From Opitutales bacterium (GTDB taxonomy: Bacteria; Verrucomicrobiota; Verrucomicrobiia; Opitutales; Coraliomargaritaceae): 39,051 bases of DNA. The notes under the pieces are model-generated. The model was not told where the DNA came from and did no database searches. It worked only from the letters and a program-made list of their open reading frames with translations. Shown here piece after piece: positions 2,325 through 25,289 of the stretch (position 1 is its first letter; each line of letters starts with the position of its first letter). A program made the position numbers and the translations under genes. The stretch spans positions 1 through 39,051 of the forward strand of contig JANQXM010000011.1 in NCBI GenBank assembly GCA_030729385.1. Reading direction: 5' to 3'.

Positions 2325-4160
2325 ATGAACGCTAAAAACATCCGTAACATCGCCATCATCGCTCACGTTGACCACGGCAAGACCACCCTCGTGGACTGCC
2401 TGCTCGCCCAAAGCGGAACTTACCGCGAGAACGAACGTGTTCAAGAGCGCGCAATGGACTCCATGGACCTTGAAAAGGAAAAGGGTATTACCATTAAAGC
2501 GAAGAATCTCGCAGTGAAATGGACGAACCCGAAGGATGGCGAAATCTACACGATCAACATCGTGGATACTCCAGGACACGCCGACTTCGGTGCTGAAGTG
2601 GAACGCGTGATGAAGATGGTCGACGGCGTGTTGCTTTTGACCGACGCCGTTGGCGGTCCGCAGGCGCAAACTCGTTGGGTGCTTCGTAAAGCCCTCGACC
2701 AAGGCCTGAAGACCATTTGTGTGATCAATAAAGTCGACCGCGACACTTCACGCCCTGACTGGGTGCACGATAAAGTGCTCGAACTCTTTCTCGATCTTGA
2801 GGCCGACGAAGATCAATTCAACGCCCCCTTCCTCTACGCTTCCGCCAAAATGGGCTTCGCCGACCGCGAAGTCGATGGCCCTCGCGAAAACATGCTCGAC
2901 CTCTTCGAAACGATTGTCGAACGCATCCCTGCTCCCGTCATCGAAGAAGGTGATTTCCGCATGCTCGCGAGTAACATCGACTGGGACGACTACGTTGGTC
3001 GTATGGCGATCGGCCGTGTGCTTTCCGGTGAGGTAAAAGTGGGACAAACTATTTTTGCACTTCGTAAAGACGGCAAAAAGGACCGCGTTAAAGTCACTAA
3101 GATGAAGAGCTTCTCCGGCGCTGGCAACACCGACGACGTGACGACTGCTGTCGCTGGTGACATTGTCGGCCTTGCTGGTTTCGACGAAGTAGACATTGGC
3201 GACACCCTCGCAGCTTCAATAGATATGGAAGCACTTCCATTCGTTGAAATCGATCCAGCCACCGTCCAGATGGAGTTCTCCGTCAACAACGGCCCGCTCG
3301 CTGGTAAAGATGGCAAGAAGGTCACTTCCCGCCAAATCCGTGAGCGCCTCATCCGCGAAACACAGTCCAACATTTCGATTAGCATTGAAGACACCGACGA
3401 CGGCACACGTTTCCTCGTCAACGCACGTGGCTCCATGCAGATCGCCGTCCTCGTCGAAACCATGCGCCGCGAAGGTTTCGAGCTACTCGTTTCCCGCCCG
3501 ACCGTTCTTTACAAAGAAATCGACGGCAAGCGCAACGAACCCTTCGAACGCGTTTGGGTTGAAGTGCCCGAAGAGCAACTCGGTGGTGTCATGGAAAACA
3601 TCAGCAAGCGCAAAGGTAAGGTCACTAACATGGAGCACCATCACTCCGGCGTCACAGTCGAAGCAGAATGCCCCACTCGTGGACTCATCGGTTTTGAAAG
3701 TGATCTCGTCACCATGACTTCCGGTCACGGCGTAATGAGCCACTCCTTCCTCGAGTATCGCCCACACTGCGGCGAGATCGTCACACGCCTCACCGGCACA
3801 CTCGTCAGCATGGAGCAAGGCAAGACAATGCCATACGCACTTGAGATGATTCAAAGCCGCGGCAAACTCTTCGTTGGTCCAGGTGAAGAAGCCTACTCAG
3901 GAATGATCGTTGGCGAAAACCCTCGCACCGAGGACATGCCCGTCAACCCAGCCAAAGCGAAGCAACTCGACAACATGCGTTCTTCCGGCACGGATAAGAG
4001 CATCCAGCTTTCACCGCCAATTAAGTTCTCTCTTGAGCGCGCGATCGAATACATCGCACCCGACGAGCTCGTCGAAGTCACACCGAACTTCCTGCGTATG
4101 CGTAAACGTATCCTCGACGAGAACGTTCGCCGCAAGATGGCCAAAGCAGCCAAGAAGTAA
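2325..4160 (+). CDS. typA: translational GTPase TypA/BipA
   Basis: Ribosome-associated GTPase of the EF-G/LepA group that acts in ribosome assembly and stress or cold adaptation. The protein has 611 aa, typical of the family. G1 [10 protein letters not shown] lies at residues 13-22, the switch II/G3 DTPGHADFG at about 80 and G4 NKVDR at about 135; the domain II, III/V and TypA-specific C-terminal regions follow, ending in a basic tail ([10 protein letters not shown]). The start is at the family N-terminus ([14 protein letters not shown]) and is preceded not by a Shine-Dalgarno sequence but by 7-nt repeats. Monocistronic: a terminator-like hairpin lies on both sides. Confidence 0.97.
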
Positions 4161-4270: not shown

Positions 4271-4362
4271 GGAGGGCAATGCTCCGTCATTGCCGTTCGC
4301 TAAGGGCGCTCGAACACCTAGCCGCAAGTCATACGTGCGGAAACGACAGAGCGTTTCCCTCC
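4271..4362. repeat. two REP-like hairpins in inverted orientation (GGAG head)
   Basis: First unit: head GGAG, stem GGCAATG (4275-4281), loop CTCCGT, stem CATTGCC (4288-4294). Second unit is inverted: stem GGAAACG (4339-4345), loop ACAGAG (CTCTGT on the other strand), stem CGTTTCC (4352-4358), then CTCC, the head of the inverted copy. The stems differ in sequence but both pair fully. The pair lies between the convergent ends of typA and the aminotransferase gene. Confidence 0.7.
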
Positions 4363-5901: not shown

Positions 5902-5984
5902 TACTCAGGGGGGGATTTGAACCCCCACGCCCTTGCGGGCACCACGACCTGAACGTGGCGTGTCTGCCGTTTCACCACCTGAGC
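5902..5984 (-). tRNA. tRNA-Leu (anticodon CAG)
   Basis: Folds as a class II tRNA of 83 nt: acceptor GCTCAGG with CCTGAGT, D stem GTG/CAC with GG in the loop, anticodon stem CCACG/CGTGG with loop TTCAGGT (anticodon CAG, reading CUG), long variable arm GCCC-GCAA-GGGC, T arm GGGGG/CCCCC with loop TTCAAAT, discriminator A. CCA is not encoded. The first acceptor pair is G-U. The gene is followed by its own terminator and by a partial duplicate of its 3' end. Confidence 0.95.
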
Positions 5985-6334
5985 GAAAGTCGAAGTGCGG
6001 AGAAAAGTCGGCTTATCGGTCGCTGTCAATCTTGAGATTTGAGGTCTGGTTCAATGATTCGAATTAACCACAGAAATCACATAACACACAGAATTACAGG
6101 AAGCGACCCAAACTGAGGTGATTCGTCTCAAAGAAACAAGATACATTCCTAATACTGAATATTATCGATCAGAGTATTTTGTGCCTTCTGTGCTTTTTGT
6201 GGTTCAAAAATCGAATCTTTGTTGGCTAGTGTGAGCGATTTGAACAATTTGAATGACTCAGCCAACACAATCCATGCGCATCGCATTCGACAGGCTCATG
6301 CTTGGGAGACGATGCTGCGCTACCTTTTGACATT
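5985..6334. other. non-coding gap with an inverted-repeat relic
   Basis: About 350 nt between the tRNA and the carbonic-anhydrase-like gene, AT-rich, with no convincing gene on either strand. It contains the long imperfect inverted repeat at 6066-6205 and one copy of the dispersed ATTCGACAGGCTCA motif (6285-6300). Confidence 0.6.
6066..6205. repeat. imperfect long inverted repeat (AACCACAGAAA ... TTTTTGTGGTT)
   Basis: The left end begins AACCACAGAAATCACA (from 6066) and the right end is TTCTGTGCTTTTTGTGGTT (to 6204), its approximate reverse complement, with about 100 nt of AT-rich sequence between them. It looks like a small miniature-element or REP-like relic; no coding capacity. Confidence 0.5.
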
Positions 6335-6871: not shown

Positions 6872-7038
6872 CAGGACTTCTCCAGCATAGCTGGAAACCG
6901 TCGATGACCTTGAGCCTGTCGAAAGGCTTATTTTCGCTAATAGGCGCTGAACACGGATTCACTGCGTATTTCTGATCTGTGTTTTCGACGCTCTGGGCTT
7001 GCAATGCGTGGCGAATGCTTTCTGGTATTTATTGTTAT

Positions 7039-9690: not shown

Positions 9691-9869
9691 GTAGCCACGG
9701 CAGTCCCCTGCCGTGTTTCGTTTTAGCGGATAACGGCTATGCAGAAGGTCACGTCACAGAGTGACGTGGCTACATCTGTGATGATGGAACAGAATGGTGA
9801 ACCGCAGTTGGCGGACGTGTGAAACACGTCCCTCCAGTCTAAGCTGTAGCCACGGCAGTCTCTGCCGTG
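9691..9869. repeat. cluster of four REP-like hairpins
   Basis: R1 plus: head GTAG(C), stem CACGGCAG/CTGCCGTG, loop TCCC (9691-9715). R2 minus: stem CACGTCAC/GTGACGTG, loop TCT, head GTAGC at 9769-9773 (9750-9773). R3 minus: stem GGACGTG/CACGTCC, loop TTTCA, head GGAG (9813-9835). R4 plus: GTAGC, CACGGCAG, TCT, CTGCCGTG (9846-9869). The cluster fills the space between the convergent feo operon and the DHOD-like gene and may act as a bidirectional terminator. Confidence 0.75.
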
Positions 9870-13759: not shown

Positions 13760-13804
13760 CCGAAAGATAGAACTCGGTTTCTTGAGACTGAGGTAATCTA
13801 AAAT

Positions 13805-14019
13805 GTAGCCACGTCACTCTGTGACGTGTCCCTGTCTGTCCCGAGGTAATCGAAGGTGTAACGTAATCCCGAGCATATACGCTAACCTGCTAAACCGAAA
13901 CACGGCAGGAGACTGCCGTGGCTACAACTTAGACAAGAGGGACGTGTTTCACCCGTCCGCCATTTATTTGGAAGCTCATCCTGAAACGTAAAGATGTAGC
14001 CACGTCACTCTGTGACGTG
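13805..14019. repeat. cluster of four REP-like hairpins
   Basis: R5 plus (13805-13828) and R8 plus (13996-14019): GTAGC, stem CACGTCAC/GTGACGTG, loop TCT. R6 minus (13901-13925): stem CACGGCAG/CTGCCGTG, loop TCTC, head GTAGC. R7 plus (about 13937-13958): GAGG head, stem GGACGTG/CCCGTCC with one mismatch, loop TTTCA. Fills the 298-nt gap between the convergent hypothetical gene and lpxA; nothing else is seen there. Confidence 0.75.
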
Positions 14020-14057
14020 TCCCTCAAGTTCGTCCACGGCGGTTACCTTCGATACCA

Positions 14058-16183: not shown

Positions 16184-16482
16184 ATATATGAGTATTAAGA
16201 CAGTAAGATCAGAACGAACAGTGAGAACGGACCGACATAAAACCCCAAAAGCTAAAGGAAGCCTCAAACATGTAAAGCATCGGTTTTAACGATCACCTGA
16301 TGTGTGAGAAGGGATACCTTGGTAGCTGTCTTATATATTATGGAGGGCAATGCGCTGTTCTAACCTGAGTTTGTCGAAGTGTCATTGCCGCAGATACTTC
16401 GTTGCCGCATCGAACCTTCGGCGGTTGCGACGGAGCGCAACCCTCCAAAAACATGCAACTCGCTCGTATTTTTCCAGTTCTA
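16184..16482. other. non-coding gap with REP-like elements
   Basis: The 299 nt hold the upstream region of lpxC (no recognisable promoter or ribosome binding site) and the repeat at 16341-16446 next to the end of pxpA. No gene is seen. Confidence 0.6.
16341..16446. repeat. REP-like pair, one with an enlarged loop
   Basis: Plus unit: GGAG head, stem GGCAATG (16345-16351) and CATTGCC (16382-16388), but instead of the 6-nt CTCCGT loop a 30-nt loop containing ACCTGAGTTTGTCGAA. Minus unit: stem GGTTGCG (16423-16429), loop ACGGAG, stem CGCAACC (16436-16442), then CTCC. Lies just downstream of pxpA. Confidence 0.7.
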
Positions 16483-18796: not shown

Positions 18797-18901
18797 AGTC
18801 TTAATCCTCCGTTCACGTTCGTAAGACCTTCTATTACAACGCTTAGATTAAGATTAAGAGCGCATCAGCCACGCAACCGATTCTATAGGGCTGCAACAAC
18901 C

Positions 18902-18965
18902 GGCGATGACGGAGCATCGCCCTCCACTGCAGCCATATTCTGGAGGGTTGCGCTCCGTCGCAACC
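18902..18965. repeat. two REP-like hairpins in inverted orientation (GGAG head)
   Basis: Minus unit: stem GGCGATG (18902-18908), loop ACGGAG, stem CATCGCC (18915-18921), then CTCC. Plus unit: GGAG head, stem GGTTGCG (18946-18952), loop CTCCGT, stem CGCAACC (18959-18965). The loop is the same hexamer on the head strand in both units, while the stems differ and remain complementary. Confidence 0.75.
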
Positions 18966-18992
18966 GCAGTATGTCTTATTGGATCGATTCCC

Positions 18993-19035
18993 ACAACCGG
19001 CGATGACCATTCGACAAGCTCAGGTTGGAACCTCC
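18993..19035. repeat. degenerate REP-like unit carrying the ATTCGACAAGCTCAGG motif
   Basis: ACAACCGGCGATGACC repeats the left arm of the 18902 element, but ATTCGACAAGCTCAGG (19009-19024) replaces the expected loop and right arm, and CCTCC ends the unit near 19034. Related to the large-loop element at 16341. Confidence 0.55.
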
Positions 19036-19192
19036 ATTTCAGTCATATTCCAGCGGATTGCTCTCCACATTCAAAACCACCCGCATTTTACAATAAAAGC
19101 CCCCAATGGAGCGACATTCCAAAATACCCTGAAAATAAGCTAAAAACTTCTTGATTTAACCAGCCAGTCCTATTTGCTCTCCAACTTTTCCC

Positions 19193-25216: not shown

Positions 25217-25289
25217 GTAGGGACGCCTGCCCTCAGGCGTCCGCTATATTAGCTTCAGCCTCGGACGCCTAGGGGCAGGCGTCCCTACC
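25217..25289. repeat. REP-like pair with 9-nt stems (GTAG head)
   Basis: Plus unit: GTAG, stem GGACGCCTG (25221-25229), loop CCCT, stem CAGGCGTCC (25234-25242). Minus unit: stem GGACGCCT (25263-25270), loop AGGGGC, stem AGGCGTCC (25277-25284), then CTACC, which is the inverted GTAG head. Twenty nt separate the two. Lies between the divergent start of glnS and the convergent end of the EF-hand gene. Confidence 0.75.

Follow-up and report, generated by a model that had tools for sequence, protein, structure and literature searches.

Introduction

Between the genes of the DNA stretch studied here lie short hairpins with a GTAG or GGAG tetranucleotide at one foot, and the question is whether they are repetitive extragenic palindromes (REPs), how many families they form and which REP-associated tyrosine transposases (RAYTs) could have spread them. 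The whole stretch of 39,051 nt, called the window in the following, is contig 11 of a draft genome (G000; 2.59 Mb, 73 contigs, 99.6% complete). Its FeoB is nearest to Coraliomargarita sp. SDUM461004 and to Opitutales/Puniceicoccaceae bins, which points to a Coraliomargarita-like member of the Opitutales as host. The original prediction, made from the window alone, described a single REP family with eight interchangeable stems. In our reading, the hairpins are very probably non-autonomous REPs copied by several RAYTs which read head and loop, with drifting stems, paired units and turnover of the RAYTs themselves.

Two congeners, one of them G001, served for comparison, so that the class II stem set covers three congeneric genomes. 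The base-by-base sample comprised 1.15 Mb of the own genome (~44%), while the counts for class I, class II and the loop module described below are genome-wide.

Hairpins of the window

All predicted hairpins were recovered at their positions by a window scan and direct reading. The scan yielded 14 perfect REP hairpins, and reading of the sequence added a single-mismatch copy (13936-13958), a copy with a large loop insert (16342-16389) and a remnant (18999-19035; Table 1). The stem at 9813-9835 is, more exactly, GGACGTGT and measures 8 bp. Heads indeed sit at the hairpin feet; in class I, however, one unpaired C separates head and stem. Similarly, the proposed five-base head T-G-(G/T)-A-G holds for class I and class II, where base -1 is T in 41/41 and 37/37 copies, but a T does not start every head, as base -1 is G in all 33 copies of classes III, IV and V, the last of which is present in the window. 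No REP hairpin of the window was matched by Rfam. Its sole match there was a tRNA-Leu (CAG) at 5902-5984 on the minus strand.

Table 1. REP hairpins and remnants of the window, with strand and the basis or context of each assignment.
Position	Strand	Feature	Basis or context
4271..4294	+	Class II REP, stem GGCAATG; left half of head-out pair	Scan, genome-wide pattern search
4339..4362	-	Class II REP, stem GGAAACG; right half of pair with 4271	44 bp spacer, CAATG/AAACG subfamily
9691..9715	+	Class I REP, stem CACGGCAG, loop TCCC	Scan, genome-wide pattern search
9750..9773	-	Class I REP, stem CACGTCAC; head-out pair with 9691	Scan, pattern search
9813..9835	-	Class VI REP, TGGAG-GGACGTGT-TTC; class also flanks decayed RAYT-A	Scan, RAYT-A flanks
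9846..9869	+	Class I REP, stem CACGGCAG, loop TCT	Scan, pattern search
13805..13828	+	Class I REP, stem CACGTCAC; head-out pair with 13901-13925	Gap REP-free in two congeners
13901..13925	-	Class I REP, stem CACGGCAG, loop TCTC	Scan, pattern search
13936..13958	+	Decayed class VI REP: head AGAG, stem GGACGTGT with one mismatch	Sequence reading
13996..14019	+	Class I REP, stem CACGTCAC	Scan, pattern search
16342..16389	+	Class II REP, stem GGCAATG; loop replaced by 30 nt module holding CTGAGTTTGTCGAA	Sequence reading
16423..16446	-	Class II REP, stem GGTTGCG	Scan, pattern search
18902..18925	-	Class II REP, stem GGCGATG	Gap REP-free in two congeners
18942..18965	+	Class II REP, stem GGTTGCG	Scan, pattern search
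18999..19035	-	Class II remnant: head GGAG, right arm CATCGCC; CTGAGCTTGTCGAA replaces left arm and loop	Sequence reading
25217..25242	+	Class V REP, GGTAG-GGACGCCTG-CCCT	Scan, hairpin-foot survey
25263..25288	-	Class V REP, GGTAG-GGACGCCT-GCCCCT; head-out pair with 25217	Scan

Abundance, placement and head/loop classes

The hairpins are real and far more frequent than expected by chance. An unbiased survey of all perfectly paired hairpins with at least 7 bp of stem in the 1.15 Mb sample found GTAG at the foot in 70 cases with a 1-nt spacer and in 26 without spacer, and GGAG in 48, against a median of 4 for unrelated tetramers. Further copies beyond the window, on which the original prediction had been made to depend, were plentiful: a genome-wide pattern search, which for class II fixed head, stem foot and loop and did not require pairing of the inner positions, returned 73 copies of class I and 52 of class II, and none for the reversed-pattern control. 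Only 16 of 118 REPs lie wholly within long ORFs, while such ORFs make up 83% of the sample. High copy number and a mostly extragenic position, both typical of REPs, are accordingly found here, as is the palindrome with a GTAG-like tetranucleotide at one foot (GTAG in classes I, III, IV and V, GGAG in II and VI).

Classes are set by head, spacer and loop and not by the stem. Within each class, head, loop and stem foot stay the same, and the inner part of the stem differs among copies that remain paired. Seven such classes occur in the genome, four of them (I, II, V and VI) in the window: class I, TGTAG-C-CACGKCAS-TCT(C); class II, TGGAG-GGNNNNG-CTCYGT; class III, GGTAG-GGNNCGWTA-TCCT; class IV, GGTAG-C-GGCGNTNG-TCC; class V, GGTAG-GGACGCCTG-CCCT; class VI, TGGAG-GGACGNGT-TTC(C); and a further class of GTAG/GTGG-CCTCG hairpins beside RAYT-B (see below). 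The proposed single family with interchangeable stems therefore has to be given up, as its eight stems split over the four window classes (CACGTCAC and CACGGCAG in I; GGCAATG, GGAAACG, GGTTGCG and GGCGATG in II; GGACGCCTG in V; GGACGTG in VI) with no exchange between classes.

Stem variation with pairing retained

Conserved pairing of a varying stem, a further REP trait, is clearest in class II. Here, 111 of the 128 copies from the three congeneric genomes, carrying 14 stems, pair perfectly, while shuffling of the right arms gave a mean of 21 and a maximum of 35 perfectly paired copies; the stems thus pair well beyond chance, as the original prediction demanded. Among the 38 distinct sequences, both sides change in five of the seven pairs, and the covariation score reaches 0.635 compared to 0.21 for shuffled arms and a maximum of 0.304 when the partners are slid. 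Any mismatch at all is seen in 17/128 copies, 14 of which have single mismatches, mostly transitions, and this fits one-arm mutations as intermediates. An alternative option would be that both arms are rewritten together by block conversion or template switching instead of by mutation and subsequent compensation. The small number of mismatched copies, the recurrence of stems as discrete words and a class II REP with the stem GGCTGTG, found in one congener 3' of the gene that ends at 4160, could be taken in this sense; we nevertheless regard it as unlikely, since the 14 single mismatches are mostly transitions that link common stems and since the stems can be lined up as a ladder in which each step alters one pair (CAATG, CGATG, CGGTG, CAACG), as ordinary mutation and re-amplification would give.

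RAYT genes and their flanking REPs

The Pfam model Y1_Tnp (PF01797) had no match in the own genome, against 13 in one congener and 6 in the other. The absence of RAYTs suggested by this null result was overturned by a homology search with a congener RAYT, which found two genes, neither of them inside the window, in line with the original prediction. The Pfam model by itself can consequently miss all RAYTs of a genome. ORFs of ~330 aa with a Y1_Tnp match in relatives were also considered as mobilisers and dropped, as REPs flank none of those read.

The first gene, RAYT-A (G000:C42:83594-84066, minus strand), has lost its reading frame through a frameshift, and hairpins of the forms GGAG-GGACGTGT-TTC and GGAG-GGACGCGT-TTCC flank it. 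These are of class VI, to which the window hairpin at 9813-9835 belongs (the predicted GGACGTG class). The counterpart of RAYT-A in G002, a related genome, contains one in-frame TAG; judged by their reading frames, both look recently inactivated. RAYT-B (G000:C67) is an intact ORF of 186 residues between GTAG/GTGG-CCTCG hairpins. For class II, an open-frame RAYT in G001 is flanked by GGTTGCG/GGCGGTG/GGCGGCG, and one in another genus by GGAAACG-ctccgt, a stem also found in the window. G002 furthermore holds a decayed remnant of a RAYT flanked by class III. RAYTs framed by matching REPs, the proposed check, were thus found for class VI in the own genome, for class II in G001 and another genus, and for class III in G002, which bears out both the REP identity of the hairpins and their association with RAYTs. 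Homology search revealed no class II RAYT in the own assembly, where contig gaps could hide one, and no RAYT flanked by class IV or by class I, the most abundant class, was found. A separate REP class, GTAG-AAGCGACA-CTCY, flanks another RAYT type in three relatives (G002:C39, G010 and G018).

In a tree of 19 rows, the deep forks of which are weak so that only two clades were used, the class II-flanked RAYTs form one clade (95/93) and RAYT-B with its relatives another (100/99). A RAYT profile (A1) matched the solved TnpArep 4er8 at 1.1e-19, and the NCBIfam RAYT model recognised the class II RAYT of G001 above its cut-off and RAYT-B at 1.8e-12, below the cut-off. By these matches the genes are assigned to the Y1 HUH nucleases of the TnpAREP family, with a predicted catalytic function. 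The original prediction had offered several RAYT lineages or fast stem evolution as explanations for the diversity of hairpins, and both apply: the lineages are tied to head/loop classes, and the stems drift fast inside a class.

RAYT-B, the sole intact RAYT found in the own genome, could also mobilise class I. Both units open with GTAGCC[A/T]CG, at a distance of 1-2 kb from the gene there are four class I copies, and no second intact RAYT was found that could do so. On the other hand, RAYT-B is directly framed by CCTCG-type hairpins that have a T-G step and the loop TCA/TCG, and the flanking pair was class I at 0/30 loci of RAYT-B and its homologues in the order; we hold this assignment to be less likely than not.

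Paired units and lineage specificity

As expected for REPs, many of the hairpins occur in inverted pairs (BIME/REPIN). Class II head-out pairs combine two different stems in 33 of 34 cases (counted by eye from the match list), nearly always one GGC-type stem with one GGT- or GGA-type, and their spacers in the own sample measure ~32 bp for CAATG/TTGCG and 40-46 bp for CAATG/AAACG. Whole pairs resembling that at 4271-4362 are present on contigs C71, C15 and C21 of G000. This head-out arrangement with subfamily-specific spacers suggests that the mobile unit is probably the REP pair (BIME or REPIN).

The copies are lineage-specific. Class I, with its 73 copies in the own genome, has none in either congener, and the syntenic gaps corresponding to 13760-14057, 16268-16482 and 18797-19087 contain no REP in either of them. 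A synteny test at named FeoB loci was set aside for lack of synteny, and regions of the congeners were used instead.

An almost exclusively intergenic position and the ability to fold as RNA are also what transcription terminators or mRNA-stabilising structures, selected at gene ends and not mobile, would show, and such secondary roles are possible for REPs (PMC3733652). Structures of this kind would not, however, be expected to have class-specific heads and loops common to tens of copies, paired units with conserved spacers, identical hairpins beside RAYTs or REP-free syntenic gaps in congeners, and we consider this explanation highly improbable.

Proposed mechanism and relation to described systems

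From the hairpins, their covariation, the lineage-specific sites and the RAYTs flanked by the same classes, we infer that several RAYT/TnpAREP proteins, acting as HUH single-strand nucleases, would copy the non-autonomous REPs. Each lineage would recognise the folded single strand via head and loop on a paired stem, leaving the stem sequence free to drift provided that pairing is kept, by one-arm mutation followed by a compensating change or by re-amplification. The unit moved would often be a head-out pair of two different stems around a subfamily-specific spacer. RAYTs would come and go, with one frameshifted and one intact in this genome and those of classes II and III only in relatives, and the window would consequently mix recent copies with orphans.

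GTAG REP families with complementary stem variants and heterodimers have been described for species including Opitutus terrae (Di Nocera et al., 2013; PMC3733652). The present hairpins resemble them in their GTAG-headed perfect stems of 6-9 bp, the complementary stem variants within families, the homo- and heterodimers, the presence of several families per genome and the mostly intergenic position, but differ in the GGAG head of classes II and VI and in the host, which is another genus. The GGAG head is not named in the texts of PMC3733652 and PMC8266576, and is backed here by its own RAYTs. Work on fluorescent pseudomonads and stenotrophomonads (Nunvar et al., 2013; PMC3686654) describes REP classes, orthogroups and the "orthoswitch," together with stems that switch at RAYTs, RAYTs reduced to pseudogenes, and orphan REPs. 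Our data likewise show switched stems at related RAYTs, RAYT pseudogenes and REP classes outliving their RAYT; in contrast to that work, these are seen via congeners of an Opitutales genus, and a class is defined by head and loop instead of the stem. For the group 3 TnpAREP/REP duos with perfect palindromes from Stenotrophomonas and Marinomonas, some loop positions allowed no change in vitro and stem changes were tolerated better (Corneloup et al., 2021; PMC8266576), which predicts a constant head and loop with a free but paired stem. The perfect palindromes, constant loops and drifting stems found here match this tolerance, although the biochemistry is that of the published duos.

The system is thus a known sort of selfish DNA, traced here to specific intact, broken or lost RAYT genes, and adds a Coraliomargarita-like genus to the REP/RAYT picture. 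Because it cleanly sets a drifting stem apart from an unchanging head and loop, it also provides a covariation set for how RAYTs read DNA hairpins.

A module nested in REP loops

Some loops carry a further module, CTGAGCYKGTCGAA. All 10 exact copies of the genome lie within REPs, nine in class I loops and one in the class II remnant of the window (18999-19035, minus strand), and a one-mismatch copy occupies the class II loop at 16342-16389 (plus strand). Elsewhere in the phylum, this motif is frequent as a repeat. General nesting of the CTGAGC module in loops was not seen there (4/32 with arms of at least 6 bp vs. 9% in controls), and a literal search of the literature found no mention of it. 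The simplest reading is that two or three fusions occurred and were later copied along with the REP. Alternatively, CTGAGCYKGTCGAA could be a small mobile palindrome preferring the loops of other hairpins; its copies in loops or a remnant of two unrelated REP classes would then form a hairpin-in-hairpin element within REP pairs, which we judge quite improbable.

Two more one-mismatch copies of CTGAGCYKGTCGAA lie in the window at 6263-6323 (minus strand) and 6910-6923 (plus strand). The hairpin around the former, with the head GGTAG, the stem GCATCG/CGATGC and a loop starting with TCTCCC, looks like a drifted class I unit.
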